Assembly: GCA_022788185.1 (NCBI GenBank) | Contig: JALEVV010000034.1 | Location: forward strand, 1-43,426 | DNA length: 43,426 nucleotides | DNA from: Spirochaetales bacterium | Lineage (GTDB): Bacteria > Spirochaetota > Spirochaetia > Sphaerochaetales > Sphaerochaetaceae | Reading direction: 5' to 3' | Shown here: positions 1,240 through 35,374 of the stretch, one piece after another | How the letters are laid out: every line of letters begins with the position of its first letter | Numbering within the stretch: the first letter of the stretch is position 1 | Translations under genes and position numbers: made by a program | The notes under the pieces: generated by a model | What the model was told of the DNA's origin: nothing | Database searches by the model: none | Seen by the model: the letters and a program-made list of their open reading frames with translations, nothing else

Positions 1240-3630
1240 ATGCAATATGGCTATTTTGATGACAGAAACAGGGAGTATGTGATAACACGTCCCGACATAC
1301 CCGTATCCTGGACAAACTATCTGGGCTGCGAGAAGACCGGAACGGTGATAAGCCATAATGCAGGCGGCTACATGTTCCATGAGAGTGCGGAGAACCACCG
1401 CATAACCCGCTTCAGGGCAAACGGAGTCCCGCTGGACCGTCCGGGACACTATGTATACCTCCGTGATGATGATACGTCCGACTACTGGTCAGTATCGTGG
1501 CAGCCCGTGGCCAAGAGCCTTTCAAAGGCCAAATATGAGGTGCGTCACGGCATGTCATATTCCATCTTCAAGTGTTCATACAACGGCATTAAGGCAAGCC
1601 AGAAACTCTTCATACCCATCGGGGATGCGGTGGAGCTCTGGGACATAACGGTGAAGAACACCACATCCAGGGAAAGGAACATTTCACTCTTTCCGTACTG
1701 CGAGTTCTCCTTCAACCTCATTGAAATAGATAACCAGAACCTGCAGATGTCACTTTACTCACAGGGCTCAAGGTATGAGGACGGAGTAATCGAAATAGAC
1801 AACTTCTATGATCCTGACATGTATCACTACTTCACCTCCTCCTTCACCCCCGACGGCTTTGACTCCGTCAGGGATACATTCATCGGGGTTTACAATACCG
1901 AAACAGATCCCGAAGGAGTGAAGACCGGAATCATGCATGACTCCGTCGAACTCGGAGGCAACCACTGCGGTGCCTTCAGGGCAAAGGTCACCCTTGCACC
2001 CCGAGAGGAGAAGCGCTTTATCGTGATGCTCGGAGTGGGAAACCTGGAAGAAGGCAGGAGGATTAAGGCGAAATACTCCTCTTCCGATGAAGTTGATAAG
2101 GCATTCAGAAGGATCAGGAGGTACTGGGCCGACAAGTGTTCATGCCTGCAGATCGACACCCCCAACAAAGACATGAATACCATGATCAACATCTGGGATC
2201 TCTATCAGAGCGAGACAAACGTCAACTTCTCCCGCTTCTCATCGTTCATCGAGGTCGGCGGAAGAACTGGACTCGGATACAGGGACACGGCACAGGATGC
2301 GATGTGCATCCCCCACTCCGCTCCCAGGCGCTGCAGGGAGCGGATAGAGGAACTCCTAAGGGGACTTACAGAGGCAGGATACGGTCTTCACCTATTTGAA
2401 CCCGATCTCTTCAATCCTGAAATCCCGAAGAAGGAAAAGAGACCCTCTCCCACCGTCAAGCCTGAGCCTGAGAAGGGCAGTCTCATCCACGGTCTCAAGG
2501 ACACATGCTCTGATGATGCCCTCTGGCTTGTGGGATCAGTATGCGAATATGTAAAGGAAACGGGAGACCTGAAGTTCTTTGACAGGAAGATTAATTATGC
2601 AGAAGGCTCCTTCGACACGGTATATGGACACCTGAAGAGAATCCTGGACTTCTCTGCAGAGCAGGTCGGTGAAAGCGGCATATGCAAGGGCCTCAGGGCA
2701 GACTGGAATGACTGTCTGAATCTGGGCGGCGGGGAATCGGCACTCACAAGCTTCCTCCACTACTGGGCAACCTCGTATTTCATCGAAGCCGCGGCAAAGC
2801 TCGGAAGAAGTGAGGATGAACTGAAGTACACAGCCCTTAAGGAGAAGATCAGGGAAGCATGCGAGCGCGTGCTCTGGGATAAGGAGTGGTACATAAGAGG
2901 AATCACAAAGAGCGGAAGGAAGATCGGAACGAGCGAGGACGTGGAAGGAAAGGTCCATCTGGAATCCAATTCCTGGGCCGTACTTTCCGGAGCCGCTTCG
3001 CCTGAGCATGCCGCTAAGGCAGTGGACGCCATCGACAAGTATCTGTATTCGGAGTACGGCATACACCTCAATGCACCTTCCTTCGGCACACCCGATGATG
3101 AAATCGGATTCGTGACCAGGGTTTACAAGGGAGTAAAGGAAAACGGTGCCATCTTCTCCCACCCCAATCCCTGGGCCTGGGCAGCGGCAGCGCTCCTCGG
3201 TCAGGGCGACAGGGCAATGAAGTACTACAATGCACTCTGCCCCGCAAGGCAGAATGACATGATCGAGATCAGACAGGCGGAGCCCTACTCCTACTGTCAG
3301 TTCATCATGGGCCGTGACCACAGTGCCTTCGGCCGTGCACGCCATCCCTGGCTTACGGGCTCGGCAGGCTGGGCATACTTCTCTGCCACCCGTTACATGC
3401 TCGGAGTGCGTCCCGATTACGATGAACTCGTGATCTCACCTGCGATCCCGCATGAATGGGATGGCTTCAGGATGCAGAGGAAGTGGCGCGGAGCCACATA
3501 TCTCATCGAGGTGAAGAATCCCGAACACAAGGAATCGGGAGTGAGGGAAATATACCTCAACGGCGAAAAGGTCGACAGGATACCGCCTCAGAAGAAAGGA
3601 ACGACCGTTAAGGTTGAAGTGATAATGTGA
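1240..3630 (+). CDS. GH94 glycoside phosphorylase (N,N'-diacetylchitobiose / cellobiose phosphorylase type)
   Basis: A 796-residue enzyme of glycoside hydrolase family 94, which splits a beta-1,4 disaccharide with inorganic phosphate into sugar-1-phosphate and free sugar, saving ATP. Family landmarks are the N-terminus YGYFDDRNREYVITRPD, the DRPGHYVYLRDDD block, SFIEVGGRTGLGYRDTAQDA in mid-protein and DWND at 488-491, whose second Asp (D491) aligns with the catalytic acid of characterised members. HPWLTGSAGWAY and QWRGATY-like blocks close the protein. From memory the sequence resembles chitobiose phosphorylase (ChbP) more than clostridial cellobiose phosphorylase, but both subgroups share most motifs and no alignment was run. 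There is no signal peptide, so the enzyme is cytoplasmic. The start is set by GGGGAGG 8 bases upstream. The hexosamine 1-kinase at 18.4-19.4 kb would make the same type of product (GlcNAc-1-phosphate). Confidence 0.9.
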   Translation: MQYGYFDDRNREYVITRPDIPVSWTNYLGCEKTGTVISHNAGGYMFHESAENHRITRFRANGVPLDRPGHYVYLRDDDTSDYWSVSWQPVAKSLSKAKYEVRHGMSYSIFKCSYNGIKASQKLFIPIGDAVELWDITVKNTTSRERNISLFPYCEFSFNLIEIDNQNLQMSLYSQGSRYEDGVIEIDNFYDPDMYHYFTSSFTPDGFDSVRDTFIGVYNTETDPEGVKTGIMHDSVELGGNHCGAFRAKVTLAPREEKRFIVMLGVGNLEEGRRIKAKYSSSDEVDKAFRRIRRYWADKCSCLQIDTPNKDMNTMINIWDLYQSETNVNFSRFSSFIEVGGRTGLGYRDTAQDAMCIPHSAPRRCRERIEELLRGLTEAGYGLHLFEPDLFNPEIPKKEKRPSPTVKPEPEKGSLIHGLKDTCSDDALWLVGSVCEYVKETGDLKFFDRKINYAEGSFDTVYGHLKRILDFSAEQVGESGICKGLRADWNDCLNLGGGESALTSFLHYWATSYFIEAAAKLGRSEDELKYTALKEKIREACERVLWDKEWYIRGITKSGRKIGTSEDVEGKVHLESNSWAVLSGAASPEHAAKAVDAIDKYLYSEYGIHLNAPSFGTPDDEIGFVTRVYKGVKENGAIFSHPNPWAWAAAALLGQGDRAMKYYNALCPARQNDMIEIRQAEPYSYCQFIMGRDHSAFGRARHPWLTGSAGWAYFSATRYMLGVRPDYDELVISPAIPHEWDGFRMQRKWRGATYLIEVKNPEHKESGVREIYLNGEKVDRIPPQKKGTTVKVEVIM

Positions 3631-5679: not shown

Positions 5680-6813
5680 ATGAAACGAAAGCTTATCACC
5701 CTGGCTGTCATCATCGTGGCAGCCGGACTTTTACTTATCTCTTCCTTCGATCTCTTTGACACCTCCGAAAGTGCCGCTTACAGTGAGTTCATGTCGGCTC
5801 TTGAAAACGGTGCGGTCAGTGAAGCGGAATTCACCGGAGGAAAGATAAAATACAGAGTCGGAGACACTGTCTACAGCGTCACTGATCCCGAGTCCCCCGC
5901 CCTCAAGGAAAAACTCCTTCTCTCAGGAGCTGAGGTAAGGACATCAGACGGGGACATCAATGCAGTAGGGGATGCGATATTCAACATCTTCTTCATTTGC
6001 CTCATCGGCTTCGGAGTCTATAAGCTCATATCGTGGTACACGAACACATTCAAAGTGGTCAGGCACACGGGTGTGCACTTTTCCGATGTGGCAGGTCTTG
6101 ATGACATCAAGAAGGAAATATCCTTCCGGGTGAAGCTCATGAAGGAAGGAAAGGGCACCGTCAGGGACAGCAGGGGCATCATCCTGGAAGGCCCTCCCGG
6201 AAACGGAAAGACACTCTTTGCCCGGGCCCTTGCCGAGGAGTGCGGTGTCAGCTTCATCGCCACCAAGGGTGCGGATTTCCAGGGAGCCCTGATGGGACTG
6301 GGCGCATTCAAGGTGAAAATGCTTTTCAGCAAGGCAAGGCGCAGGAAGCCATGCATAGTCTTCATCGATGAGTTTGACTCGATCGGCGAGAAGAGATCAT
6401 ATGCGGGCTCGGGAATCGATAAGGAGAACAACAGACTCATCACCACACTGCTGAATGAGATGGATGGCTTTGAGGCGTCCACGGGAGTGCTTGTGATCGC
6501 GGCGACAAACTCATATCAGTCCCTCGATGCGGCACTGGTGCGTCCCGGAAGATTCGACCTCAAGTACACAGTCTCCAATCCCGATGCCGCGGCAAGGAGC
6601 GAGCTCATTGCCATTTACACGAAGAACATGAAACTCGATCCATCCCTCACACCGGAGATGCTTGTGAAGGCCTTTGACGGACTTTCAGCCGCTGCAATTG
6701 AAAGCATACTTTCAGGTGCCGCGGCCATTGCGCTTCAGAACAGTCTTCAGGCAATCGATGCGCGTGTGATAAATACCGCAGCCCTGAGGGCAAGGGAAAA
6801 ACTCAGAAAGTAG
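5680..6813 (+). CDS. FtsH-like membrane AAA ATPase lacking the M41 peptidase domain
   Basis: A 377-residue protein with the N-terminal architecture of FtsH: membrane span at ~5-23, an extracytoplasmic FtsH_ext-like domain (SEFMSALENGAVSEAEF, residues ~35-90), a second span at ~99-118, then HFSDVAGLDDIKKEI and an AAA module. Walker A is GPPGNGKT (171-178), Walker B IVFIDEFD (226-233), and the second region of homology ends in LVRPGRFD with R288 and R291 as arginine-finger candidates. After a short lid helix region the protein stops; there is no HEXXH zinc peptidase domain, and the next gene converges with an 11-base overlap, so none is hidden by a frameshift. The pore segment reads KGADFQGALMGLGA instead of the usual SGSDFVEMFVGVGA. 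It is probably an unfoldase or membrane-protein remodeller. No strong ribosome binding site is seen; it lies 37 bases behind the MtnA-like gene. Confidence 0.8.
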   Translation: MKRKLITLAVIIVAAGLLLISSFDLFDTSESAAYSEFMSALENGAVSEAEFTGGKIKYRVGDTVYSVTDPESPALKEKLLLSGAEVRTSDGDINAVGDAIFNIFFICLIGFGVYKLISWYTNTFKVVRHTGVHFSDVAGLDDIKKEISFRVKLMKEGKGTVRDSRGIILEGPPGNGKTLFARALAEECGVSFIATKGADFQGALMGLGAFKVKMLFSKARRRKPCIVFIDEFDSIGEKRSYAGSGIDKENNRLITTLLNEMDGFEASTGVLVIAATNSYQSLDAALVRPGRFDLKYTVSNPDAAARSELIAIYTKNMKLDPSLTPEMLVKAFDGLSAAAIESILSGAAAIALQNSLQAIDARVINTAALRAREKLRK

Positions 6814-7915
6814 CTCTTGCCCTCTTCTCCACCTCCACTATCCTCAAAAGACGGTCAATCGCATAGGGGAAGAATTCCTTATAGGCAGGACAGAGATATG
6901 AGAGGCTGAGCTCTCCTGTCCTGAAATCCTCCCTGTCCCTTCTGCAGCCGCCGCGGCAGAGGCGGTACCAGCGGCAATTCATGCACTCAGGCTCAACTTT
7001 CATGCTCTTTTCAATGAAACCCAGGGCCTTTCGCTTTTCATCAAGCGAGGCAAGAGTGTCGGCAATGATGTTTCCCATAAGATACCCATCCAGGGAGTAG
7101 AAGTCACATGGATATACCGAACCATTTCCCTCGATCACATAGTAGTTGCCGCACCTTCCGCTCATGCCGCATGCTTCGGGAGGATATCCCAGCAGCATGG
7201 TGACCAGATTGTCGAAGTATCTTACCGAGATGTACTCTCCCCTGCTCCATCTGTCATAGTATCTGTCAAAAAGGATCTTAAGGGCCTTGCCGTAAAGTTC
7301 CGGTGTCAGTGACCAGGGATTCTTCTCGCCGCTTATCTCATCAAGGCAGGGTATGAACTGAAGATATTTAAAGCCATTTCTCGCGAAGAAGTCGAAGATA
7401 TCACCGATGTTCATGGCAACATCCCTGTTGACCGTCGTGAGGATGTTGAATTCCACATGTTCGGCGGAAAGGAACGATGCGGCCCTGAAAACCCTGACAA
7501 AGGAGCCCTTTCCGTCAGGCCCCTTCCTGTATATATCATGTATCTTCTTATTGCCGTCCATCGAAAGTCCGATGAGATACCCGTTTTCACGGAAGAAGGC
7601 TGCCCACTCCCTGTCCAGATCATATCCGTTGGTCTGGAGGCAGAACGAGACCCTGTCCCCGCCCTTTTCCCGGGCATATGCGGTAAATTCCCTGAAGAAA
7701 TCAAGTCCGGCCAGAGTGGGTTCCCCTCCCTGGAAGGAGAAATTCACCCGGTCACTTTCACTCAGCGCCCGGTCAATGAGGATCCTGGCAGTCTCCTCAC
7801 TCATGAAGCCATGGACTTTGACAGCCCTGTTCTCGGCTTCATCTTTGTAGAAGCAGTAGGTACAGCGCATGTTGCATGCAGCCGATGCGGGTTTGATGAG
7901 AAACGTTCTGTTCAT
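6803..7915 (-). CDS. Anaerobic sulfatase-maturating enzyme (radical SAM, SPASM)
   Basis: A 370-residue radical SAM enzyme that converts the active-site Cys (or Ser) of sulfatases to formylglycine in the cytoplasm without oxygen. The S-adenosylmethionine cluster motif CNMRCTYC has C14, C18 and C21. SFQGGEPTLAG and LQTNG are the usual downstream motifs. The C-terminal SPASM region supplies auxiliary cluster cysteines: C249, C255, C270, then C311, C314, C320, C324 and C342 (CMNCRWYRLCRGGC ... LCPAYKEFF). Length is normal for anSME. Its clients are presumably the two Cys-type sulfatases at 31.4-35.3 kb. It stands alone, convergent with the FtsH-like gene. Confidence 0.9.
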   Translation of the reverse strand: MNRTFLIKPASAACNMRCTYCFYKDEAENRAVKVHGFMSEETARILIDRALSESDRVNFSFQGGEPTLAGLDFFREFTAYAREKGGDRVSFCLQTNGYDLDREWAAFFRENGYLIGLSMDGNKKIHDIYRKGPDGKGSFVRVFRAASFLSAEHVEFNILTTVNRDVAMNIGDIFDFFARNGFKYLQFIPCLDEISGEKNPWSLTPELYGKALKILFDRYYDRWSRGEYISVRYFDNLVTMLLGYPPEACGMSGRCGNYYVIEGNGSVYPCDFYSLDGYLMGNIIADTLASLDEKRKALGFIEKSMKVEPECMNCRWYRLCRGGCRRDREDFRTGELSLSYLCPAYKEFFPYAIDRLLRIVEVEKRARATF

Positions 7916-8484: not shown

Positions 8485-9468
8485 TCAGACAAGATCAGCA
8501 AGTTTCTCAGCAAGTTCAAGAATATCTATTCCTTTTGTAAACTGAAGACATGTTCCACTTGGATACCTAGTCTTTTCAACCCAGCTCTCAGGAATTGCCT
8601 TTAATCCATATTTGGCACCAAGGATAGCACCTGCAACAGCCCCTATCGTATCGGCATCTCGGCCATAGTTACCTGCAAGGACCACTCCTTTTCTGAAGTC
8701 ATCATGACAAAGTCTGAGACAGGCAAAGGCTGAGGGAATTGCTTCTGCTGTAGTAGCCCAGGTCGAGCATCTTGTCTCATCATGAATCTTCATCCACGAA
8801 GAAAGCACATCAAATCCACTCTCCTCAATTATTCTCTTTGTTTCAATCATTTCATGATATGTCCAGCATTCCTCAGGAAGCGAATCCATAGCTGCATCAA
8901 ATATTTCTTCCCACTCCCCATCGGCCATGGCAACTGCTACTGCTGCGGCAACGGCCTGAGCGCCCCAAATACCATCACGATAATGACTGATACGGGCATC
9001 TATTTCAGCAAGTTTTCTTGCTTTTTCGGGATTCCCTGCCGAAATGATTCCAACTGGAGGAATTCTCATGGCAGTGCCATCAGACATATGAAACACATTG
9101 AATTTTCCACTTTCTGGAGCCCGAAGTCCCTTTCTGATATTATTTGCGGCAGATATCTCACTTTGACCACCGCGCTTGAACTCGTCCTGCACTACGACAT
9201 GTTTAAGCCACGAATCCATAATACATTCGTCAGTCAGCTCTCCCCCGCAGTTGACGAGGGTGGTCGCTGTCAGCATCGCAAATTCTGTATCATCTGTACT
9301 CCAAGTGGATTTGCTGCTGAAATCCGTTGTAAACCCATAATTCACACGATTATCCTGAACCCTGCAAGCATCACCGAAGGAATCACCGATCGCAAGACCG
9401 ATTAATGCACCTTTTGCTCTGTCAAGCAAATCATTTCTGTCTCTGAGTATCTCAGATCTGTTTCTCAT
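8485..9468 (-). CDS. ADP-ribosylglycohydrolase-fold hydrolase (DraG/ARH family), short form
   Basis: A 327-residue protein of the ADP-ribosylglycohydrolase family, all-helical enzymes that use two Mg ions to cut N- or O-linked ribosyl bonds. The metal-binding motifs are intact: STDDTE at 57-62 and GRDADTIGAVAGAILGA beginning at 269 (D271, D273, T274). GALIGLAIGDSFGDA (20-34) is the usual first helix. It is cytoplasmic and single-domain. It overlaps the preceding, larger family member by 17 bases and has its own GAGAGGAAGG ribosome binding site, so both are made together as the last genes of the LacI operon. Family members act on ADP-ribosylated proteins, ADP-ribose derivatives, or, in loci such as the E. 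coli yegTUVW cluster (nucleoside transporter, hydrolase, sugar kinase), probably on small glycosides. Linkage to a CUT1 importer favours a small imported substrate. Confidence 0.85.
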   Translation of the reverse strand: MRNRSEILRDRNDLLDRAKGALIGLAIGDSFGDACRVQDNRVNYGFTTDFSSKSTWSTDDTEFAMLTATTLVNCGGELTDECIMDSWLKHVVVQDEFKRGGQSEISAANNIRKGLRAPESGKFNVFHMSDGTAMRIPPVGIISAGNPEKARKLAEIDARISHYRDGIWGAQAVAAAVAVAMADGEWEEIFDAAMDSLPEECWTYHEMIETKRIIEESGFDVLSSWMKIHDETRCSTWATTAEAIPSAFACLRLCHDDFRKGVVLAGNYGRDADTIGAVAGAILGAKYGLKAIPESWVEKTRYPSGTCLQFTKGIDILELAEKLADLV

Positions 9469-11587
9469 AATCCTTCCTCTCCCCTGTATCAGTCTCTATT
9501 TCAGCATCTGAAAAATAGGTTCGTCCAAGTGTTGTCGAGCCAAACCCAACCATTCCATAATCAAAAGCATCATCCTTAACACTGATTATTTCCTGTCCGT
9601 CAATGAAAAGAGAAATACTGTCATTTTCAGCTACAGCTTTCATTCTGTATGTCCTACCATATTCCCATCTGAAATACGCTTTTGCCAGTTGTGTTATTCC
9701 AAAATCATTTTTCAGAACTGAAACGTTATCTTTTCCGTCAAAACCAAGGTAATAGCCCCTGCAGATTCCCTTAGCCCTAAGTGCTAGTAAATGCTGTTCT
9801 CCTGATCCTGGCCGTACATTCAGTGCTATTGAAGAATACGCTGAATAGTAGTTGCCAGTAAAACTGAAAGCACTCCGGCATCTAAGATTCTCTATTTCCT
9901 TTCCGATTTTTCTCCAGGAAACATCCGTATGCACCAAAGGAATAAGAGAACCGAAGTCAGTATGGCTTTTGGAGAAATCGATTTTGTATTTTCCTTTTCC
10001 ATAAACATGAAAGTCATCGATATAAAGCAGTCCTCTGCAACGATCTGCCTTTTTGGTAAGGCCTTCCATTTCAAATCCCACTTCATCGATTATCTCACCT
10101 GATGTATCAGGAACAGTGAATGTAATCTCTGTCCATTGACCGCGCTTAGGTTTATTATATGAAGCAATCAGTTTCGTTCCGTTTATCGTATGCACATATC
10201 CATTGATTCCCAAATCATCAAGTCCTGTCCACTGATCATTGTAAAGTCTGAAAGAAACAGTCTGACCTGAGACAACCTTAGGTGAGAAAGCGGGCATGTA
10301 ACGCTCATCTGAGAAATCAGACCTCACAAAAAATGGCTTATTAAAGATTCTGCATACCTGACCTCTGTAAAACTGACTGTAAATGATTTCCAGTGTACCG
10401 TTTTCTGCGTTCTCCGGATCATTTCCATGCCTTATCTGACAGAGGCACTCATCTGATGCCTTAAATCCATGTGTTGATCCAGGCAATTCAAAGTCAAAAA
10501 ACAAGCTACCCAGTTTCAGATCCCTGAACTCAGGAGGTATCTCAATTCCCTTCAGTTTATATCCAAGGTGGCAGAGTTCCTTTGAAAATGATGGAATGTC
10601 CAAAATATTCAGATATCCTGAAATTCCGGAAAGGACAATCTGATCATTCACTGGTGTTCTGTACTTTTCAGGAATACATTCGATTCCATTGGCAACAGCC
10701 AGAACGGTTGCAACATTACCAGCATTGCAGTCAGTATCTTCTCCGCAACTGCATGCTATCTCAATTGTTTGGGTGTAATCTCCATCTCCATAATACAGAG
10801 CAAGGAAACACACACCTGCATTGGGTATAATGTGACAGTTTCCAGGATATTTACTACTGTTCCAGTCTCTGTATAGCATCCTCATGCAGCCTCTCCAGTC
10901 ATCCGGATGCTCATCATGATATGCCTTGACAGCTCTTGCTACACGATAATAATCCGAATTGCTGTCTATAAGGCTGAGACCAGTCTCAATTATTTCATTC
11001 AGGTCAGATGTATCAAAAGCTTTAGAAATTGCGGCACAGAAGAATCGCGCACCATTCAGGCCTTCACCGTCATGGGATACACTTGCAGCAATTTCACCGT
11101 AACGGGCTGCCTTTTCAGGATCCGACGGATTTACAAGACCAAATGTGTCAATAAAAATCTGACCGCCAATCTGCTGTGCTATAATCTCTCCGTTTGTCCT
11201 TATGGATCCGGAATCCGGTGCTTTGATACCGTTTCTGAGATTTAGATATGCAGTATGTTCAGTACTGATTCCATACCCTCCCCACCAAAACATTCCAACA
11301 CCTTCACGGGCATAATTGAGCCAGGCTTTTGCAACATCTTCAGGAGAAAGTTCACCATCCCGCGCATCATCAATCAATGCTCGGATAAAATATGCAGGTC
11401 CATTGGAATCATCATCAGCCGCAAAAGTTTTGTATGGTTTAACATATCTGTCAATGAATCCATATACCTTCTCAATACGATCCATATTCCAAAGTGCAGG
11501 CTCTACAGGAGCACCCAATCTGATGCCTATGCACTTTCCAAGGAAACCGGCATAGACTTTTTCGAAGTAGTTTTCAGGAATAAGCAT
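9452..11587 (-). CDS. ADP-ribosylglycohydrolase-fold enzyme with C-terminal beta-sandwich extensions
   Basis: A 711-residue protein. Residues 1-340 are an ADP-ribosylglycohydrolase-type domain: GFLGKCIGIRLGAPVE near residue 14, a variant metal motif AADDDSNG (56-63; the family usually has STDDT), and CGEDTDCNAGNVATVLA (281-297), where D284 and D286 match the second metal motif. Residues ~360-530 look like a galactose-binding beta-sandwich that ends in LLYIDDFHVYGKG, and ~535-705 look like a concanavalin/DUF1080-type sandwich ending in DYGMVGFGSTTLGRTYFSDA. There is no signal peptide, so these glycan-binding-like domains are cytoplasmic. It follows the binding-protein gene after a stem-loop and precedes the short family member. 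The extension suggests a carbohydrate-like, not protein, substrate. Function not established. Confidence 0.8.
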   Translation of the reverse strand: MLIPENYFEKVYAGFLGKCIGIRLGAPVEPALWNMDRIEKVYGFIDRYVKPYKTFAADDDSNGPAYFIRALIDDARDGELSPEDVAKAWLNYAREGVGMFWWGGYGISTEHTAYLNLRNGIKAPDSGSIRTNGEIIAQQIGGQIFIDTFGLVNPSDPEKAARYGEIAASVSHDGEGLNGARFFCAAISKAFDTSDLNEIIETGLSLIDSNSDYYRVARAVKAYHDEHPDDWRGCMRMLYRDWNSSKYPGNCHIIPNAGVCFLALYYGDGDYTQTIEIACSCGEDTDCNAGNVATVLAVANGIECIPEKYRTPVNDQIVLSGISGYLNILDIPSFSKELCHLGYKLKGIEIPPEFRDLKLGSLFFDFELPGSTHGFKASDECLCQIRHGNDPENAENGTLEIIYSQFYRGQVCRIFNKPFFVRSDFSDERYMPAFSPKVVSGQTVSFRLYNDQWTGLDDLGINGYVHTINGTKLIASYNKPKRGQWTEITFTVPDTSGEIIDEVGFEMEGLTKKADRCRGLLYIDDFHVYGKGKYKIDFSKSHTDFGSLIPLVHTDVSWRKIGKEIENLRCRSAFSFTGNYYSAYSSIALNVRPGSGEQHLLALRAKGICRGYYLGFDGKDNVSVLKNDFGITQLAKAYFRWEYGRTYRMKAVAENDSISLFIDGQEIISVKDDAFDYGMVGFGSTTLGRTYFSDAEIETDTGERKDYEKQI

Positions 11588-11600
11588 TTTGTCCCCAAAT

Positions 11601-11622
11601 GGGACTGCCCGAAGACAGCCCC
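11601..11622 (-). other. Intercistronic stem-loop after the binding-protein gene
   Basis: GGGACTG (11601-11607) pairs with CAGCCCC (11616-11622) with one G-T pair around an 8-base loop. It lies in the 45-base gap between the binding-protein stop and the next start. No U-tract follows on the minus strand, so it is more likely an mRNA-stabilising or partial attenuating hairpin than a full terminator. Confidence 0.45.
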
Positions 11623-11632
11623 TATTTTTATT

Positions 11633-13102
11633 TTATTTTAAAATCTTGTTGGCGTAATCTGTTACGGCCTTTCCGCCCATTGCATTCCATTCAGCAACAA
11701 AGGCTTTCCAGTCAGCACTGGTCTTCTTTCCGGCGACGAAGTCAGCTGCAAATTCCTTATAAACAAGCGTTGCAGCATCCCATTCAGTGGAAAGCTCATC
11801 AGGAATGGCAAAACTGTTATCAAGGATAAGAGAAGCATTTGCCATTTCCGTTGCCTTAGCCATTATCGGTTTTGCTCCAAGAGGAACCTGTCCGATGATT
11901 TCCATTCCAACATCATAACCGCTGAGTGATTCGTGGAAACGAGGCCACCATGAGTTATCAAGAACATTCAGTTTACCATCAGCTGTAATTTCATAGTGAA
12001 CTCCTTCGAAACCATACTGATCAAGCAGAGCACCTTTTCCGCCGGCTAGCCAGTCAAGGATATCAAATACAAGCTGTTTGTTTTTACTGTACTTGCTTAT
12101 AGCCCAACCTCTAGTCTCTTTATCAATTGCAACCGGTTTGAGAGCCTGAACCCCATCAGGTCCTTTTGCAGGAGGAAGAACATGTAGAGTTGCATTCTCA
12201 TTATTTGCCGCAATCATCTTGTTCTCATATTTTGGAACGACAGTATTCTGTGTACCTACAACAATTCCCGCCTCTCCCGTATAGAAAGCCTGCTCCTTAG
12301 CAGAATATTTCTTTGTGAGATATTCGTTATCAAAAAGACCTTCTTTATAAAGCTGAGCATAGAATTCAAGTTTTTTTAGTTCATTATCACTTACATTCTT
12401 ATAAATATATTTACCATCTTTATCCTTGACCCATGACTGAGAATCACCAAATGCCTGACCGAAAACCATATCAAGCTCATAAAGGCCATCAGTTGCTCCC
12501 TGACAGGTAAAAACTGTCTTGGAAGTAAATTTTGCTTTAAGTTCTCTCATGAATGCAAGGTAGTTTTCCGGTGTGGGATCAGCAACAAGAGAATCGGCAG
12601 TATCCATCTGATCAAACCAATCCTGTCTTACCAGAGGAACTTTGTTACCGGGTGTGGAGTTCCAAAGCAGGTAGGGGTAGTTCTCAAGGCGTGCAAGAGA
12701 ATGTGCCCCAAGCGTATTCTTAAGGTTTTTTGAAGACTGAATATAAGGTCTCAGGTCTTCAAGGATACCCTGTGTAACGCCAAACTGATAGTCTCCACCC
12801 TGGAAGTAAATCAGGTCTGGAATATTTCCGCTCTGAAGCATCAGGCTGACTGCATCCGCATAACTTCCCTCCTGAATCTCAACAGGCTGAAAATCAACAT
12901 AAATACCATCTTCAGCCAGCAGGACCTCCATTTTGTCCAGCATCTCAAGATAATCACTGACATCCTTAATCACACAAGTAATCACAGTAGGATTGTCTTT
13001 AGTCGCAGCTGAACTTACAGCCTTTGTTTCTTCTTTTGCTCCCTGTGCAAATACAGAAAAAGCAAGTAGAAGCACCAATGAAACAACAATAAGTCTTTTC
13101 AT
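11633..13102 (-). CDS. Extracytoplasmic solute-binding protein (LplA/CUT1 type)
   Basis: A 489-residue secreted binding protein for an ABC importer of oligosaccharide-like substrates. The leader MKRLIVVSLVLLLAFSVFAQ has a basic N-end, a hydrophobic core and a VFA cleavage site; no lipobox Cys is seen, the usual spirochaete style. The mature part has the LplA/YtcQ-type layout, with ITDEIA-like and IPDLIYFQGGDY segments and a C-terminal KTSADWKAFVAEWNAMGG. The start is set at 13102 (AAAGGAGATAAAAATG); an in-frame extension to 13147 lacks a ribosome binding site. It follows its two permeases, the usual order for Lpl-type systems. Confidence 0.85.
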   Translation of the reverse strand: MKRLIVVSLVLLLAFSVFAQGAKEETKAVSSAATKDNPTVITCVIKDVSDYLEMLDKMEVLLAEDGIYVDFQPVEIQEGSYADAVSLMLQSGNIPDLIYFQGGDYQFGVTQGILEDLRPYIQSSKNLKNTLGAHSLARLENYPYLLWNSTPGNKVPLVRQDWFDQMDTADSLVADPTPENYLAFMRELKAKFTSKTVFTCQGATDGLYELDMVFGQAFGDSQSWVKDKDGKYIYKNVSDNELKKLEFYAQLYKEGLFDNEYLTKKYSAKEQAFYTGEAGIVVGTQNTVVPKYENKMIAANNENATLHVLPPAKGPDGVQALKPVAIDKETRGWAISKYSKNKQLVFDILDWLAGGKGALLDQYGFEGVHYEITADGKLNVLDNSWWPRFHESLSGYDVGMEIIGQVPLGAKPIMAKATEMANASLILDNSFAIPDELSTEWDAATLVYKEFAADFVAGKKTSADWKAFVAEWNAMGGKAVTDYANKILK

Positions 13103-13115
13103 TTTTATCTCCTTT

Positions 13116-14006
13116 TTATTCTTTAACACCACCCGACAGAACACCACTTGTATGATATTTTAAGACTATCGGGTAAATGATAAGAATCGGTATCAGGGCA
13201 ACCCATATTGTAGTTGCCTTCATTGCTTCCATATCTAACTGGGCAATGATGTTATTTGCATTGATATTTGCGAGTCCATACATATTGACCTGATCATTCT
13301 CAACAACGAATTTCCGCAGGAGGACCTGCAATACAGTATTCTTTTCACTGCTTAAGAAGATGCTTGAATAGAAGAATTCATTCCACTTAGTAACAAAGTA
13401 GAACATCCCAATAGTAACTGTGGGAACCTTCATAAGAGGCATGTAAATTCTGCAGAATATAGTCCAGTGTCCTGCACCATCAAGCATTGATGATTCAACT
13501 ATGGAAACAGGAACATCCTCAAAAAATCTCATGAAAATTACGAGATAATATACACTTACTGCCTTGTAAAAGACCATTGACATAAGATTATCCAGTAAAT
13601 GTAAATCCTTCATGAGGAAATACTCCTGAACCATTCCTGGCACCATAATCATCATAAAAATCAGGAAATACATTAATGGCTTCTTTCCTGCAAGATTTTT
13701 TCTTGTAAGAACATATGCAGCGGTTGAAGTCAGAAGGAGGCTTAATACTGTTCCCGTAATTGTTATGAAAAGGCTGTTCCTGAAGCTTATTCCAATCAGT
13801 GGATTATTGAAAACTACCTGATAGTGAAACAGCGAAAAACCTCTTGGAAGCATATCAGTACCAGTAACAAGGTAAGCCTCAGCAGGATCAGATAATGATC
13901 TTGCAAGGAGGTTCACTAGAGGAACGATGATTGTAAGGGCAATGAATACAAGAATAAAAGCAATCAAGATTTTGCCAATCGTAAATCTCTTTTTAACTAC
14001 AGCCAT
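13116..14006 (-). CDS. CUT1 ABC transporter permease (LplC/YtcP type)
   Basis: A 296-residue inner-membrane permease with about six spans. The cytoplasmic EAA loop that contacts the ATPase reads ESSMLDGAGHWTIFCRIYMP. The C-terminus YPIVLKYHTSGVLSGGVKE is characteristic of the LplC/YtcP subgroup (fungal-cell-wall or host-oligosaccharide importers). The start is the ATG at 14006, sharing one base with the stop of the preceding permease (TGATG) and 7 bases after GGGGG; a second ATG at 14012 lacks a usable ribosome binding site. No ATPase gene is present. Confidence 0.85.
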   Translation of the reverse strand: MAVVKKRFTIGKILIAFILVFIALTIIVPLVNLLARSLSDPAEAYLVTGTDMLPRGFSLFHYQVVFNNPLIGISFRNSLFITITGTVLSLLLTSTAAYVLTRKNLAGKKPLMYFLIFMMIMVPGMVQEYFLMKDLHLLDNLMSMVFYKAVSVYYLVIFMRFFEDVPVSIVESSMLDGAGHWTIFCRIYMPLMKVPTVTIGMFYFVTKWNEFFYSSIFLSSEKNTVLQVLLRKFVVENDQVNMYGLANINANNIIAQLDMEAMKATTIWVALIPILIIYPIVLKYHTSGVLSGGVKE

Positions 14007-14899
14007 CACCATGCCCCCTTTCCCGTAAGCTTCTTTGAAGTAATATGGGTTGATATCACAAGAACTGCTCCGATAATTCCCTTAAAGAGATTTGCTGCAG
14101 TTGCAAGAGAATACTGACCGTTTTTCAGTCCTATTCTGTAAACATATGTATCAAGAATGTCTATTTTGCTCAGTACAGCATCATTGGAGAAGTTCATCAC
14201 CTGATCAAGCCCTGCATTGAGAATGAATCCTACATTCAGTATTAATACCGTGACCATTGTAGGGAATAAAGCAGGGAGTATAATTTTCTTCATTACCATC
14301 CATCTGGAAGCTCCATCAATCTCCGCCGCCTCATATAGCGTGCTGTCAATAGTCAGGATAGCGGCAGAAAAAACTATGGAGTCCCAGCCGACACTCCTCC
14401 ATGCTTCAGACATGAACAACGTCCACCTGATAGTATCCTTACTGGTAAGGAAATCAATCGGTCCGATTCCAAAAATTCCCAGGACGGTATTAACTGCTCC
14501 GCTCTTACCCATGAAACTGAACCATACCCCTGCAATAACAACCCATGACAGGAAATGAGGAAGGTATGATACTACCTGAATACTCTTTCTGAATGGTCCT
14601 ATGGAAAACTCGTTAAGACAGATAGCGAATATAATCGGGAGTGGGAAGAACATGAATATTTTCATGAAACTTATGATCAGAGTATTCTTAAGAATTCTCC
14701 AGAACATTGGAGTAGAAAAGAGCTTGCCGAACCATTTCAACCCGACAAATACATCGCTTTCAAAAATACGAAAGTCAAAGAAAGCAAGTTTCATCTCATA
14801 AATCGGCTTCAGGTGAAATACTAGAAAATAAACAAGCGTCGGAAGGAGCATGATATAAAGAACAATGTCACCTTTAATTCTTTTAATATTTTTTTTCAT
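14006..14899 (-). CDS. CUT1 ABC transporter permease (LplB type)
   Basis: A 297-residue inner-membrane permease. The LplB signature is clear: LLPTLVYFLVFHLKPIYEM near the N-terminus, PIIFAICLNEF, VSYLPHFLSWVVIAG, and the EAA loop EAAEIDGASRWMVMKKIILP. The C-terminus GQYSLATAANLFKGIIGAVL is also typical. It partners the LplC-type permease directly downstream. It overlaps the HAD gene by 17 bases and has AAAAGGAGAT as ribosome binding site, so expression is coupled. Confidence 0.85.
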   Translation of the reverse strand: MKKNIKRIKGDIVLYIMLLPTLVYFLVFHLKPIYEMKLAFFDFRIFESDVFVGLKWFGKLFSTPMFWRILKNTLIISFMKIFMFFPLPIIFAICLNEFSIGPFRKSIQVVSYLPHFLSWVVIAGVWFSFMGKSGAVNTVLGIFGIGPIDFLTSKDTIRWTLFMSEAWRSVGWDSIVFSAAILTIDSTLYEAAEIDGASRWMVMKKIILPALFPTMVTVLILNVGFILNAGLDQVMNFSNDAVLSKIDILDTYVYRIGLKNGQYSLATAANLFKGIIGAVLVISTHITSKKLTGKGAW

Positions 14900-15452
14900 G
14901 TCTTATCTCCTTTTCTATTTCATGTGCAGCAGACAAAATATTCTCAGTCAAAACGACTCTCTCATATGGAGAAAGCTTCATTTCCTCCAGGCTAGCATGC
15001 CCGGCACCGGTCATTACCAGATATGCTTTTGATCCTACATTTCGTGCCATCTCAACATCACTGTGATAGATATCACCTATGAAAATGCATTCACTGAGAT
15101 TCAGCCCGTATTCTTCTGCAGCAATCTTAGGGAAATACGGCTTTGGCTTCCGGCAACTGCATCCGTCTTCCTTACGGTGCGGGCAACAGAATACTTTTTC
15201 AACACTGATACCGGACTCCCTTAGCTCAGAGATCAGCCGATCCGCACTATGGTCAAAATCATCATGACTGATGATTCCCTTTGCTATCCGGCTCTGATTG
15301 GTAATGATGAACAGAAGATATCCGCAGTCCTGAATAATCCTTAGTGCTTCTTTTGCATTATCAAAAAAAGCAAATGATGTGATATCACCATAAGCACTTC
15401 CACCAAGAGTACCCTGCAGATCAAAAAAAACTGCTCTTCTGTCGTTTGCCAT
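14883..15452 (-). CDS. HAD-IIIA protein, GmhB/HisB-N-like, with altered nucleophile motif
   Basis: A 189-residue HAD-superfamily protein of the GmhB (heptose-1,7-bisphosphate phosphatase) and HisB N-domain type. Motif II is ITNQS (50-54), the zinc-binding loop CPH..C.C (C90, H92, C98, C100) is followed by RKPKP with K102, and motif IV is GDIYHSD with D127 and D132. Motif I reads FFDLQGT: the nucleophile D11 is kept, but the second Asp, normally the general acid/base, is Gln13. That predicts slow or altered phosphatase activity, or a phosphotransfer role. It sits between DUF4387 and the permeases in the LacI operon. The ATG is preceded by GTAGGAGATGGT. Confidence 0.78.
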   Translation of the reverse strand: MANDRRAVFFDLQGTLGGSAYGDITSFAFFDNAKEALRIIQDCGYLLFIITNQSRIAKGIISHDDFDHSADRLISELRESGISVEKVFCCPHRKEDGCSCRKPKPYFPKIAAEEYGLNLSECIFIGDIYHSDVEMARNVGSKAYLVMTGAGHASLEEMKLSPYERVVLTENILSAAHEIEKEIRHEKKY

Positions 15453-15460
15453 ACCATCTC

Positions 15461-15772
15461 CTACGGAATTATGAATTCCATCAGCGGTGCATGTTGCTGA
15501 GCACCATAAACATCTCTGTCAAAAGCCGAACCCGATGAAATCTTTCTGTTGAATGTCACTTTAATTCCCATTGCGGAGTCAAAGAAAACCACTTCAGTAA
15601 TATCTTTATCTTGCAGGTTATATGCACGGCAGATATTTTCCCTGTTTATTACACCGCTCCTGACAACACGTTCATAGTTCTCCCTGCTATCAAAAAGAAC
15701 ATCAAGAGTAATCTGAAAAGGACCACTGTTCTTACTTCTGAGTACCTTTGCAAGTTCAACAAGCTTTGTCAT
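15461..15772 (-). CDS. DUF4387 protein (AtuA-associated)
   Basis: A 103-residue protein of the DUF4387 family. Recognised by LAKVLRSKNSGPFQITLDVLF at the N-terminus, the VVFFDSAMGIKVTF core and the C-terminal DRDVYGAQQHAPLMEFIIP. The family has no established activity but is regularly found beside DUF1446 (AtuA-like) proteins, sometimes fused, so the two probably form one enzyme or complex. Here it begins 10 bases after the DUF1446 gene with TAGGAGAT as ribosome binding site. Confidence 0.85.
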   Translation of the reverse strand: MTKLVELAKVLRSKNSGPFQITLDVLFDSRENYERVVRSGVINRENICRAYNLQDKDITEVVFFDSAMGIKVTFNRKISSGSAFDRDVYGAQQHAPLMEFIIP

Positions 15773-15782
15773 GATTTATCTC

Positions 15783-17144
15783 CTATCGCATCTCTATCGG
15801 GAACAGTGCAGTTGGATCAGATACTTTCATCAGATGATAAACAGAGAACTCAAATACCTTTCCGAACTCTATGTCGCTTGGCGCAAACGGAAAAGCAAGA
15901 TTACCAGCTGTTGCTTTTCTGCCTTCATAACCATAGTGCATGAATGTACTCCTTAATGACGCACAAATTGCGGATGCAATATCCTGTGTCTTTGCAACTA
16001 CCTGGAAAAGAACTCCTATCTCGTGCGGAAGATCCTTGAGCGGTTCAAGTTCTCCCATTACCCCGTTTAGTCCATAGTTGTAAAAGGAAATATCATATAA
16101 AGCCGGATTAATTTCGGAATACTGTTCGGCAACACTTTTCCTGACAAGGTCCTCAACTTCCTCAATTTTTGAGATGAGAATTGGATCCCTGACACCTGCA
16201 ATCACACACGTTCTGTAGCTAGTAAGCCTTGCGCCTTCCAGTTTGATCCAATAGCCATCAGAGGGTATAAGATGACTTCCATAAACACTGACTCTATTTT
16301 TTGCTACCTGTTCAAACCTACACTGAGACAGGTCCTGTATAATTCCGGGTCCATGCAGAATATAAGGATGATCTTTCTCATAGAAAGTATGTGCGGCAAC
16401 GCTTAAAGTGGAACATTTTCTCTTTTCATCACACGGATATACATCAAAATGATCTTCATAAAGTTCTCCCATCATGCAGTCTTTTGTTGTACCCGGATTG
16501 CAACATAATGCTCCACACTCAAGTACCTTACCCAAATGATAACTGAGTGCTTTGTCAAAGCCGTTGAATATACCTACTGCGGCAAACGGAGCAGGATCAT
16601 ATGCCCTTCCGCATACAATGAGTTCAGCACCCATGGAAAGGGCCTGAACGATTGGTTCAATACCCATCTGAGCTACTACGGATGTAGTTTCCTCCAATGC
16701 TTCAGCCTCCAAAGGCTTCACAGTCGGACTAAGTGGGATGACTTCCCCTTTGGACATGCTCTTTCTGATTTCTTCTTTAGGTATGTCTGCCCATATTATG
16801 GCTGTTCTTGTACCCTCAAAACCTTCTTCCCTGAGAATTTCATCAATAATGTCCATAGTCCATTCAACATGAACTTTTCCCCCGCTTCCTCCAGCAGATC
16901 CGATCAGGACAGGAATACCAAGTTTTTTTCCTCCTGTAATAATCCTTTTCAAATCCTTTTTGGCCGCTAGGCGAGATACTATCGCAACACCGGCACCCAG
17001 TTTGTGGGGTCCCGCATCCGTTGAACCGGCATCCACGACTATGGCATCGGGTTTCATTTTCAGTCCATTTTCAAAAGATGAATCAGGGAATCCATATCCA
17101 AGAATTCCACACGGAGACAGTATTCTGAATGACTTTTTCCCCAT
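15783..17144 (-). CDS. DUF1446 / AtuA-family protein
   Basis: A 453-residue protein of the DUF1446 family, named for AtuA of acyclic terpene utilisation in Pseudomonas, though most members lie in other contexts. Marks of the family: VDAGSTDAGPHKLG (residues ~38-51), LIGSAGGSGG (~85), ELIVCGRAYDPAPFAA (~190), the EDHFDVYPCDEKRKC region, and PHEIGVLFQVVAKTQDIASAI in the C-terminal part. No biochemical activity is firmly known; in the terpene pathway it acts with CoA-linked steps. Here it has no acyl-CoA genes around it, but a sugar-type importer. The start ATG at 17144 overlaps the lacI stop by one base (TGATG), with AGGAGG inside the end of lacI. Confidence 0.82.
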   Translation of the reverse strand: MGKKSFRILSPCGILGYGFPDSSFENGLKMKPDAIVVDAGSTDAGPHKLGAGVAIVSRLAAKKDLKRIITGGKKLGIPVLIGSAGGSGGKVHVEWTMDIIDEILREEGFEGTRTAIIWADIPKEEIRKSMSKGEVIPLSPTVKPLEAEALEETTSVVAQMGIEPIVQALSMGAELIVCGRAYDPAPFAAVGIFNGFDKALSYHLGKVLECGALCCNPGTTKDCMMGELYEDHFDVYPCDEKRKCSTLSVAAHTFYEKDHPYILHGPGIIQDLSQCRFEQVAKNRVSVYGSHLIPSDGYWIKLEGARLTSYRTCVIAGVRDPILISKIEEVEDLVRKSVAEQYSEINPALYDISFYNYGLNGVMGELEPLKDLPHEIGVLFQVVAKTQDIASAICASLRSTFMHYGYEGRKATAGNLAFPFAPSDIEFGKVFEFSVYHLMKVSDPTALFPIEMR

Positions 17145-18145
17145 CACAGCCTCCTAACGCTTTCTCGTTCAACCAATGTCACGGGCAACAGCACCTTTTC
17201 TGGTACTGGCCGTTCTTCAATAAGATCCGTTGCAATCTGAGCGGCAAATTCTCCTATTCTTTTCGGATATTTCCGTACTGTGGTTATTTTTGGTGAAATA
17301 AAACCACATGACATATTGTCATCCATGCCCATAACGGAAATATCATTTGGCACTTTCAACCCCAGTCTTGCAATCTCCTGGATGAAACCTATTGCAACAA
17401 GGTCATTTCCGCAAAGTACGGCAGAAGGACGGTTCTCCATCTCAGCTACGATTTCTGCATACTGAATACCACTTTCAACTGTCAGGGGCGCATAATGAAT
17501 AAGCGATTCATCGAATTGTATCCCTTTTGAAGAAAGAAAATTAAGATATCCTTTCAGCCTGACACTGTCGCTGTAATCATCGCAGTCATTGGTAATTGGA
17601 TGTACCATGGATATTCTTCGATGACCCATTTCATACAGATAATCCATTGCATCAGAAACAGCCATTGCTGAATCAGTACCCACAATGGGGAATCCTGATA
17701 CTTCTCTTTTATCACCCATAATCACAACAGGACATTTCAAGGCATATAATTTTTGATAATCTACAGCAGGAGAATTAATCATAACGGCATCTACTCTGTG
17801 GCTTTTGACCATATCCAGATACTTTTCCTCCCTTGAGCTCTGCCAGTCACTGTTTGCCAGGATTAAGGAATATCCAAGTTTATCTAGATAATCCTGAGCA
17901 CCACGTACAACATCCGACCAGAATGAGTTAGTTATGTCGGGAATGATGAGCAGTATTGTATTAGTTCGGGTTGTCCTCATTGCCATGGCAAGAGTGTTCT
18001 TTACATATCCAAGTTCCTCTGCTGCAGTCAGGACCTTCTGCCTTGCCCTTTCACTTACACCATACACATCACCAGCAAGAACCCTGCTTGCTGTACTTTT
18101 TGATACGTTGGCTTTGTTTGCAACATCAATAATTGTAACAGACAC
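17144..18145 (-). CDS. LacI-family transcriptional repressor of the AT-rich operon
   Basis: A 333-residue LacI/GalR regulator. The N-terminal helix-turn-helix is TIIDVANKANVSKSTASRVL and the hinge helix RARQKVLTAAEELGYVKN; the periplasmic-binding-like sensor domain follows (ILLIIPDITNSFWSDVVRGA ... AVLCGNDLVAIGFIQEIARLG ... VMGMDDNMSCGFISPKITTV). The start is the GTG at 18145, 5 bases after AGGAG; upstream codons in the same frame lie across the operator and promoter and are not translated. It is the first gene of its own operon, so it is autoregulated, with a candidate operator 20 bases upstream. The effector is presumably derived from the imported substrate. Confidence 0.88.
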   Translation of the reverse strand: MSVTIIDVANKANVSKSTASRVLAGDVYGVSERARQKVLTAAEELGYVKNTLAMAMRTTRTNTILLIIPDITNSFWSDVVRGAQDYLDKLGYSLILANSDWQSSREEKYLDMVKSHRVDAVMINSPAVDYQKLYALKCPVVIMGDKREVSGFPIVGTDSAMAVSDAMDYLYEMGHRRISMVHPITNDCDDYSDSVRLKGYLNFLSSKGIQFDESLIHYAPLTVESGIQYAEIVAEMENRPSAVLCGNDLVAIGFIQEIARLGLKVPNDISVMGMDDNMSCGFISPKITTVRKYPKRIGEFAAQIATDLIEERPVPEKVLLPVTLVERESVRRL

Positions 18146-18164
18146 ACTATCTCCTAATATTTTT

Positions 18165-18176
18165 GAGAACGTTCCC
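18165..18176. promoter_or_regulatory. LacI-type operator GAGAACGTTCCC
   Basis: The core GAACGTTC is a perfect 8-base palindrome with the central CG typical of LacI-family operators. It lies between the -10 box and the GTG start of lacI, where binding would block transcription of the whole operon. Confidence 0.6.
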
Positions 18177-18192
18177 GAAACTTCTTTTTTCA

Positions 18193-31415: not shown

Positions 31416-32789
31416 TCACATTTCAGGTGCCGTTTTCCCTTCATGGTTCTGATAACCGCACTTATGGCTCCTCCACCTTCTGTCGGCCTTCACCTCCAGG
31501 GTGAAGAACGGATCATCGGTTTCAGTCACATACTTATCAAGAAGGGCTCTCATCTCATGGAGGGTATTCCTGACGGAGGCATCTGAAGCCCTGTTGACCT
31601 TTTCATGAGGATCCTCATCCAGGAAATACAGCTCCTCACCGTTTCCCTCCAGATATCTTATGTACTTCACATCTCCCCTTCTTATCATACGGCCGGGTGA
31701 AATGGTGTATCCCCACTCAGTGAACCACTCGGAAGTGACGTATGGCCGGTCGGGAAGGGTCCCGTTTTCAGCCATCGACGAAATGTCCATGCCGTCAAGG
31801 CCCGGGGGAACCGGCAGTCCCGCCAGGGACAGCAGGGTCGGAAAGAGGTCAAGTGTGGAGCATATGCCCCTGGCACTTCCCCTGGCATTCACACCCTTTC
31901 CTGAGATGATGAAGGGTACCCTGGTAACCTCCTCATAGAGAGTCACCTGCTTTGTGACCGATCCCCTGGAAGCCAGGTTATCCCCATGGTCGGATAAAAA
32001 GACGTACGTAATGTCATCCCCTATCGGCGAAGCTTCGAGCGCCTTCATAATCTCGCCTATATACCTGTCCGCAACGGAAAGATAGTAGTGGTAAGCGGCA
32101 ATGTACTCCCTGAAGTTGTCATCACTCCACCCTACCGTCTGACTCTGTCTCACATGGGAGCAGCAGAGGTACTGCACGGGAAGGGGACGGTTTTCAATAT
32201 CATCAAAGACGTAGTTTTCCGGAAGCGGGGGAAGCTTTCCTTCCACCCTTACCGGATGGGGACCCTTATTGCGTCCGACCCACCCGCAGATATTGTGCGG
32301 GTTGATGAAATCAACGACCATCAGAAGCGGCCTGTCATAGCTCCACTCCGATAAGAATTTCTTCGTTTCGGAAAGAGTGTACGCATCGGCATAGGTATCC
32401 ATGTTGAACGGAAACTCAGGCCTTTCATCGGGGATCACCAGCTCACCTTCATCGGAACAGGTGAATCCCCTAAGGGCACCGCCGTCATGCTTTTTGCCGA
32501 AGTGACGGGTCTCATAGCCCGCCCTTCTGAACTCCTCCCCCAGGGCCGGAAAGGATTCATCAAGGGGTGTTACCGGCCATGAGCGGCCATTTGACCACAC
32601 CCTGTTCCTGTGGCTGTGCTGCCCTGACCAGAGTGCCGCACGGGAGGGCTGGCAGAGGGGACAGGGGCAGTAGGCTGCCTCTGCCGATATACCGTTCTCT
32701 GCCAGACGGTCAATATTGGGAGTGGAACCGCAGGCTCCAAGCGCCCTCCAGGAGAGCTGATCAAGCTGGAAAATGACGAAGTTCCTCAT
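31416..32789 (-). CDS. Type I sulfatase (Cys-type), cytoplasmic
   Basis: A 457-residue arylsulfatase-fold enzyme that removes sulfate esters from sugars. The formylglycine motif is CQPSR at 46-50 (LCQPSRAALWSGQ), a Cys-type site to be modified by the anaerobic maturase. The metal-binding ends are FQLDQLSWRALG (D10) and TYVFLSDHGDNLASRG (~280). There is no signal peptide, so it acts on imported sulfated oligosaccharides, consistent with the adjacent GH88 hydrolase. It starts 3 bases after the GH88 stop, with a weak ribosome binding site (GGTAAG), so translation is probably coupled. Regiospecificity (2-O, 4-O, 6-O or N) cannot be read from the sequence. Confidence 0.88.
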   Translation of the reverse strand: MRNFVIFQLDQLSWRALGACGSTPNIDRLAENGISAEAAYCPCPLCQPSRAALWSGQHSHRNRVWSNGRSWPVTPLDESFPALGEEFRRAGYETRHFGKKHDGGALRGFTCSDEGELVIPDERPEFPFNMDTYADAYTLSETKKFLSEWSYDRPLLMVVDFINPHNICGWVGRNKGPHPVRVEGKLPPLPENYVFDDIENRPLPVQYLCCSHVRQSQTVGWSDDNFREYIAAYHYYLSVADRYIGEIMKALEASPIGDDITYVFLSDHGDNLASRGSVTKQVTLYEEVTRVPFIISGKGVNARGSARGICSTLDLFPTLLSLAGLPVPPGLDGMDISSMAENGTLPDRPYVTSEWFTEWGYTISPGRMIRRGDVKYIRYLEGNGEELYFLDEDPHEKVNRASDASVRNTLHEMRALLDKYVTETDDPFFTLEVKADRRWRSHKCGYQNHEGKTAPEM

Positions 32790-32792
32790 ATC

Positions 32793-33959: not shown

Positions 33960-33960
33960 G

Positions 33961-35331: not shown

Positions 35332-35350
35332 CACTTCCTCTCCTTTCAGG

Positions 35351-35374
35351 GATGCGGGGAGGAATCCCCGCATC
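35351..35374 (-). other. Strong intercistronic stem-loop after the binding-protein gene
   Basis: GATGCGGGGA (35351-35360) and TCCCCGCATC (35365-35374) form a perfect 10-base stem with a 4-base loop, in the short gap between the binding-protein and sulfatase genes. No U-tract follows, so an mRNA 3'-end protector for abundant binding-protein message is likely. Confidence 0.6.

Follow-up and report, generated by a model that had tools for sequence, protein, structure and literature searches.

An operon joining ADP-ribosylglycohydrolase-fold enzymes and a CUT1 importer to exchangeable lyases, with a possible role in the use of citrate-type sugar conjugates

We describe a nine-gene operon of a Spirochaetales bacterium whose sister operons keep the importer and the two ADP-ribosylglycohydrolase genes, but exchange AtuA/DUF4387 for CitDEF or for a CoA ligase and a citryl-CoA lyase. 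Such an exchange of three unrelated lyases in one operon context makes a hydroxy acid of the citrate type the probable partner of the sugar. Judging from sequence comparison, we give a probability of about 0.6 to the reading that the operon, under LacI control, serves the breakdown of a glycoconjugate in which a sugar, perhaps ribose or a similar pentose, is joined to a citrate-type 2-hydroxy acid (citrate, citramalate or a close relative).

Layout, conservation and origin of the operon

The operon occupies positions 8485-18145 of a 43,426-nt stretch of contig JALEVV010000034.1 (hereafter the window). All nine genes lie on the minus strand, in the 5'→3' order lacI, AtuA/DUF1446, DUF4387, HAD, LplB, LplC, solute-binding protein, HYD2, and HYD1, where HYD1 and HYD2 are the two ADP-ribosylglycohydrolases. 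The preliminary description of this DNA had reported nine tightly spaced genes on one strand, which the ORFs, the Pfam/NCBIfam assignments and an intergenic spacing of −17 to +45 bases bear out. The LacI-family repressor gene (17144..18145; Pfam LacI and Peripla_BP_3) has a plausible GTG start at 18145, the coordinate proposed before, while the ORF list instead has a TTG at 18238. In some relatives, LacI is replaced by a FadR-like GntR gene, as judged by eye from the sequences and by gene labels.

The same description had assigned one promoter with an operator to the row. A LacI-type palindrome, TTTTGAGAACGTTCCCGAAA (18161..18180, no strand assigned), with 8/10 pairs and an AACGTT centre, stands as a candidate operator. 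The promoter fared differently: the sigma-70 scan gave 20 sites across the region versus 23.3 expected by chance, none of them between lacI and its upstream neighbour, leaving a sigma-70 promoter for the operon unsupported. GC3 is 0.34-0.43 in all nine operon genes versus 0.60-0.67 in the five flanking genes measured, which suggests that the operon is a horizontally acquired island. Elsewhere, the window carries two sulfatases, a heparinase II/III-like gene and a radical SAM gene (31416-42983 and 6803-7915), perhaps for the use of sulfated glycans, and a GH94-family gene (1240-3630).

A genome-neighbourhood search, proposed earlier as a check on the operon, was positive. The core of regulator, AtuA, DUF4387, LplB, LplC, solute-binding protein, HYD2, and HYD1 recurs in Spirochaetota and Bacillota. 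Scanning genome contigs for AtuA, we obtained 17 loci, from Spirochaetota, a Firmicutes MAG, Geosporobacter, Anaerosolibacter, and Clostridium. In the loci that were long enough, the order from AtuA to HYD1 after a LacI or GntR gene was kept with few departures: L030 and L031 have a divergently oriented LacI gene, an esterase lies between HYD2 and HYD1 in two Clostridium operons (L049 and L050), and AtuA is present as two ORFs in L053. Because many genomes from two phyla share this gene order, clustering by pure chance can be ruled out.

The HAD gene (14883..15452) encodes an accessory HAD-IIIA phosphatase, GmhB/histidinol-phosphatase-like, with TIGR01656 and TIGR01662 above cut-off. It had been taken for a member of the pathway, but tblastn (E <= 1e-4) found it in 0/22 other AtuA-type loci, and we therefore do not count it as core.

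Two hydrolases and a CUT1 importer

HYD2 (9452..11587; 711 aa) combines an ADP-ribosylglycohydrolase domain (PF03747, residues 14-307) with about 400 further residues, and its residues 575-683 weakly resemble a solved levanase domain (4b1l, E 0.0018). HYD1 (8485..9468; 327 aa) is an ADP-ribosylglycohydrolase of the same Pfam family; the PF03747 scores of the two hydrolases were 178.9 and 172.7 bits against a cut-off of 26.2. HYD2 has the metal-type motifs ADDDSN and GEDTDC. The Asp-rich metal-binding motifs of HYD1, TDDT and RDADT, were invariant in 14 aligned rows, and DDT and RDAD[TS] were present in 38/39 HYD1-labelled proteins. HYD1 scored below the named equivalogs DraG (TIGR02662, 65.4 bits, cut-off 337.05) and Tri1 (NF041672, 63.1 bits, cut-off 490), and HYD2 matched neither of these two models. 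The predicted structure model of HYD1 reached a pLDDT of 81.8. No signal peptide was apparent by eye in either hydrolase. Enzymes of the ADP-ribosylglycohydrolase family cut bonds at the anomeric carbon of ribose. To our knowledge, genes of this family are widespread among bacteria, and a catabolic role is known for few of them.

Oligosaccharides are the usual cargo of CUT1 importers. The LplB-like (14006..14899) and LplC-like (13116..14012) CUT1 permeases, both with BPD_transp_1, together with the binding protein, identify a CUT1 ABC importer; no ATPase gene was present among the operon ORFs. The solute-binding protein (11633..13102) has a signal-peptide-like start by eye. It had no Pfam family at E 0.001, and its PDB matches were AlgQ1 and AlgQ2 (AlgQ1, E 2.2e-8).

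As a known system of similar composition, E. coli yegTUV also groups a transporter gene with genes for a putative ADP-ribosylglycohydrolase and a putative sugar kinase. It differs in having an MFS nucleoside-type transporter, one hydrolase and, in the passages describing it, no lyase gene, and a link to glycogen was proposed there (PMC10819704).

Lyases and their exchange in sister operons

The lyase genes of the window are AtuA/DUF1446 (15783..17147; PF07287), a citramalate-lyase-type subunit A, and the adjacent DUF4387 (15461..15772; PF14330), the corresponding subunit B. The two proteins match both chains of PDB 9erq/9evf, entries that name the citramalate lyase CmlA/CmlB (9erq_A CmlA, E 9.5e-134; 9erq_B CmlB, E 1.2e-25). 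The matches are nearly full-length, covering AtuA residues 5-446 of 454 and DUF4387 residues 4-99 of 103. DUF1446/DUF4387 had been described as a pair without known activity, a view that these matches contradict and rule out.

The operon pair nevertheless differs from CmlA/CmlB in its AtuA identity (49% over 438 positions), in forming a clade of its own, in fixed residue changes, and in having an importer and glycohydrolases as neighbours instead of genes for methylaspartate mutase and the ammonia-lyase. In L021-L023, three genomes from the same class as the window, the AtuA-DUF4387 pair is accompanied by genes for methylaspartate mutase and for methylaspartate ammonia-lyase (Pfam names checked in L022). 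The identity of these AtuA proteins to 9erq_A was 58-61%, versus 45-52% for operon-type AtuA. In a midpoint-rooted AtuA tree, built without 9erq and having two very long branches and four other AtuA rows outside both clades, the operon type formed a single clade (21 rows, 100/99) adjacent to the methylaspartate type (3 rows, 99/98). The window AtuA lies outside the clade of the methylaspartate-cluster enzymes in this tree; hence, we filed the pair as CmlAB-like and not as CmlAB.

Compared with CmlA and the methylaspartate rows, the changes fixed in all 21 operon AtuA rows include Lys49 (Tyr), Lys222 (Ala/Ser), His260 (Asp), and Lys411 (Ile/Val), but also Asp259 (Ser). An Arg occupies position 411 in 3/4 of the outside AtuA rows. 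The fixed Lys/His changes would be in keeping with a substrate of greater negative charge, for instance citrate, although this is only suggestive.

Citramalate is an intermediate of the methylaspartate pathway, and a 2015 paper describes a DUF1446 gene adjoining mal and, in the passages concerned, leaves the fate of citramalate open (PMC4682846). A methylaspartate pathway complete except for citramalate lyase has also been reported (PMC6163223). In Prevotella intermedia, according to the passages on these loci, AtuA genes adjoin methylaspartate ammonia-lyase, and an ADP-ribosylglycohydrolase gene lies separately in a hemin locus (PMC10434189). We found no description of the operon gene set and no paper on 9erq in the open-licence literature searched.

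DUF4387 was found in 17/150 related genomes at 18 places, namely 10 of this operon type (two of them on contigs ending inside lplB), 3 in methylaspartate clusters, 2 with TctABC-type neighbours, and 3 elsewhere. In L032 and L033, the neighbours of AtuA-DUF4387 are genes of a TctA/TctB/TctC tricarboxylate transporter, with Pfam support in L032, and a gene for a protein of 765 aa (748 aa in L033) that is aconitase-like by eye. This would be another AtuA context with citrate-like substrates.

We searched for HYD2 in 394 genomes of the window's class and read the neighbourhoods of the best matches and of a minority of the weaker ones. HYD2 was patchy, being matched in 60/394 genomes. At the 29 best places (E <= 1.2e-150), a set chosen by HYD2 alone, a lyase module lay beside HYD2 in 25, by hand count within the fetched stretch: 8 were AtuA, 11 CitDEF, and 6 ligase/lyase. 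As for the four places without a module, the contig ends at HYD2 in G209 and G274; in G049 it ends 2.4 kb past HYD2, with none seen upstream; and in G089, whose HYD2 contig was not widened, AtuA is on another contig. In the class of Geosporobacter, HYD2 was rare (9/391 genomes); three were of the operon type (G417, G553, and G693), and in the other six genomes, where HYD2 is mostly a paralogue, the loci opened show no lyase. Two further HYD2 searches (6/291 and 5/291 genomes matched, largely the same genomes) gave no new operon.

A HYD2 tree, which left out four copies and four rows of <600 residues, contained an operon clade of 40 rows (100/100); the fetched region L112 was without a HYD2 label. 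A lyase module accompanied 37 of these rows, where the 19 AtuA rows were partly picked via AtuA or DUF4387 and are biased, versus 1/13 outside the clade, the CitDEF of L108 on a long branch. The lyase labels on the tree needed 9 changes, compared with 27.7 when shuffled. The window HYD2 is sister to that of the CitDEF-type L130 (99/97), so close relatives differ in their lyase.

HYD1 adjoins 37/40 operon-clade HYD2 rows, 33 by ORF labels and the others by tblastn (L034, L087, L088, and a fragment in L094); by ORF labels and tblastn, it was not found near L095 and L097, both on cut contigs, or near L104. LplB/LplC adjoin 38/40 rows, and therefore something is imported. Beyond the ORF picks, tblastn added DUF4387 in L031, L048, L051, and L085, LplC in L030 and L031, HYD1 in L034, L087, and L088, the lyase of L087, and the CitE of L097. 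As a control, we counted CitF by hand in the same 394 genomes: 13/81 CitF matches over the cut-off lay within 10 kb of a HYD2 match, L108 included, with <1 expected by chance on a rough estimate.

These counts bear on the reading that the importer is an ordinary oligosaccharide importer, HYD1 and HYD2 act simply as glycosidases, and the lyase, loosely co-regulated with them, consumes citrate or citramalate that arises elsewhere in metabolism. The usual cargo of CUT1 importers and the resemblance of the binding protein to the alginate-binding AlgQ speak for it, as do the HYD2 rows outside the clade, 7/13 of which adjoin LplB/LplC-type permeases and 12/13 of which are without a lyase. However, three unrelated lyases accompany the same importer and hydrolases at 25/29 of the best HYD2 places, and we regard this reading as unlikely.

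In sister operons of the second type, citrate lyase CitDEF with CitC/CitXG stands in for AtuA/DUF4387; CitDEF is absent from the window. The set is complete in L130 (G693, class of Geosporobacter; L130:1981-10716), where CitX-CitG, CitC, CitF, CitE, a Ser-bearing CitD, a third ADP-ribosylglycohydrolase, HYD2, and a ribokinase-like gene form one row, and the importer and HYD1 face away from it. In contrast, the carrier Ser is missing, by eye, from CitD of the spirochaete operons. This Ser, the first in the L130 TLESSD, holds the prosthetic group in known CitD proteins; the residue aligned with it by eye is Lys (9) or Arg (2) in 11/11 readable sequences (L086, L089, L093, L094, L097-L102, and L108), a twelfth, L103, being unaligned over the site. 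Because of this replacement, a carrier-free citrate lyase is possible; the spirochaete CitDEF may work on free CoA thioesters, with CitF as a CoA transferase.

The prosthetic group of citrate lyase contains a ribose-ribose bond. This bond and the fold family of HYD1/HYD2 would suit hydrolases that act on nucleotide-type ribosyl bonds, whether in ADP-ribose-like compounds, in ADP-ribosylated proteins or in the phosphoribosyl-dephospho-CoA group of citrate lyase, with the lyase as target or partner. Against this, HYD1 and HYD2 persist in AtuA-type and CoA-ligase-type operons, where no acyl carrier gene was labelled, the presumed carrier Ser is gone from the spirochaete CitD, and LplB/LplC accompany nearly the whole operon clade. 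Action on the prosthetic group is thus disfavoured, and the reading as a whole appears very improbable.

The CitE of L102 best matched a 'citrate lyase subunit beta-like' protein, followed by malyl-CoA lyase. This second match, along with the fixed changes of operon AtuA at positions 49, 222, 260, and 411, leaves some room for the same pathway acting on another 3-hydroxy acid (malate, hydroxymethylglutarate, or a branched sugar acid) with a sugar other than ribose. We consider that version rather improbable, as citrate or citramalate is the simplest acid common to the AtuA, CitDEF, and citryl-CoA lyase families.

The third type carries an ATP-grasp/CoA-binding ligase and a citryl-CoA lyase. 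In L091, the lyase gave 184 bits to citryl-CoA lyase 6hxp versus 64 bits to citrate synthases, and the large ligase subunit gave 180 bits to succinyl-CoA synthetase (3ufx) and 134 bits to citryl-CoA synthetase (6hxq). Both thus resemble the citryl-CoA synthetase/citryl-CoA lyase system, but the operon version is tied to HYD1/HYD2 and CUT1 importer genes; it is not in the window. In L092, a carbon-nitrogen hydrolase gene (PF00795, L092:5682-6506) lies between HYD2 and the CoA ligase, which hints at amide-linked substrate variants. A HYD2 paralogue operon (L110:4834-15334) has two sulfatase-like genes, judged by eye, and a ribokinase-like gene, and is without a lyase.

Proposed pathway and its meaning

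From the gene content, homology, conservation, and lyase swap observed here, we infer a substrate, a bond type and a series of reactions. The shared step would be cleavage of a citrate-type acid, since three unrelated systems known for splitting citrate, citramalate or their CoA esters can fill it. What else stays constant, namely an importer with its binding protein and two hydrolases in which no signal peptide was seen, makes it probable that the acid is taken up in conjugated form and released within the cell.

We propose that the binding protein and LplB/LplC, with an ATPase encoded elsewhere, would import the conjugate. HYD2 and HYD1, presumably metal-dependent and cytoplasmic, would then hydrolyse one or more linkages at the anomeric carbon. 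The released acid would be split by AtuA-DUF4387, with acetate and either oxaloacetate or pyruvate, as the 2-oxoacid, for products. Elsewhere, CitDEF or the CoA ligase and citryl-CoA lyase would take this step, with acetate or acetyl-CoA and a 2-oxoacid as the predicted products. Finally, the sugar would receive a phosphate group, a step for which several relatives encode a candidate ribokinase-like enzyme within the operon.

A PfkB gene closest to ribokinase lies 3' of HYD1 in L030, L031, L043-L046, and G553 (L136). A ribokinase-like gene was present within 9 kb in 7/40 operon-clade HYD2 rows and was not found within that distance in the other 33, the window included. TIGR02152 was the best family for the two proteins tested (L046, 229.9 bits; L043, 237.9 bits), which missed the cut-off of 299.65, and the best solved matches of the L046 protein were ribokinases, with 1vm7 at the top. 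Ribokinase-type matches in the window's own genome were all below the cut-off (best, 86.8 bits). The ribokinase-like neighbour of some relatives fits a putative ribosyl substrate.

The bond may be a glycoside or an ester, and the acid may be citrate or citramalate. The lyase families themselves disagree on the acid, with citramalate for CmlAB, citrate or citramalate for CitDEF, and citryl-CoA for the citryl-CoA lyase, and the lyase could serve an acid made elsewhere in the cell. A 'citric acid glucoside' has been reported in wheat (PMC12929553) and citrate-linked parishins in an orchid (PMC7288046); the passages concerned draw no link to the operon. The preliminary outline of a catabolic unit, in which an imported glycoconjugate is cut in the cytoplasm, is supported by the conserved neighbourhood and proves largely right apart from its DUF1446/DUF4387 and HAD parts, and the proposed chemistry is now much narrower.

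Taken together, we give slightly less than an even chance to a broader reading, in which the operons represent a patchy, wide-ranging and undescribed pathway on sugar conjugates of citrate-type acids. ADP-ribosylglycohydrolase-fold enzymes would serve in it as true glycosidases, followed by four interchangeable cleavages: CmlAB-like, classical CitDEF, CitDEF with a Ser-less CitD (presumably using free CoA), and the pair of CoA ligase and citryl-CoA lyase. The exchange of three lyases predicts, without a substrate screen, the type of acid that the hydrolases should release, which makes the pathway testable with a handful of compounds. It also suggests what DUF1446/DUF4387 pairs may catalyse outside the methylaspartate route, and it draws attention to a form of citrate lyase that has seemingly lost the carrier residue. 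If the pathway is real, an overlooked class of citrate glycosides would be food for anaerobes.
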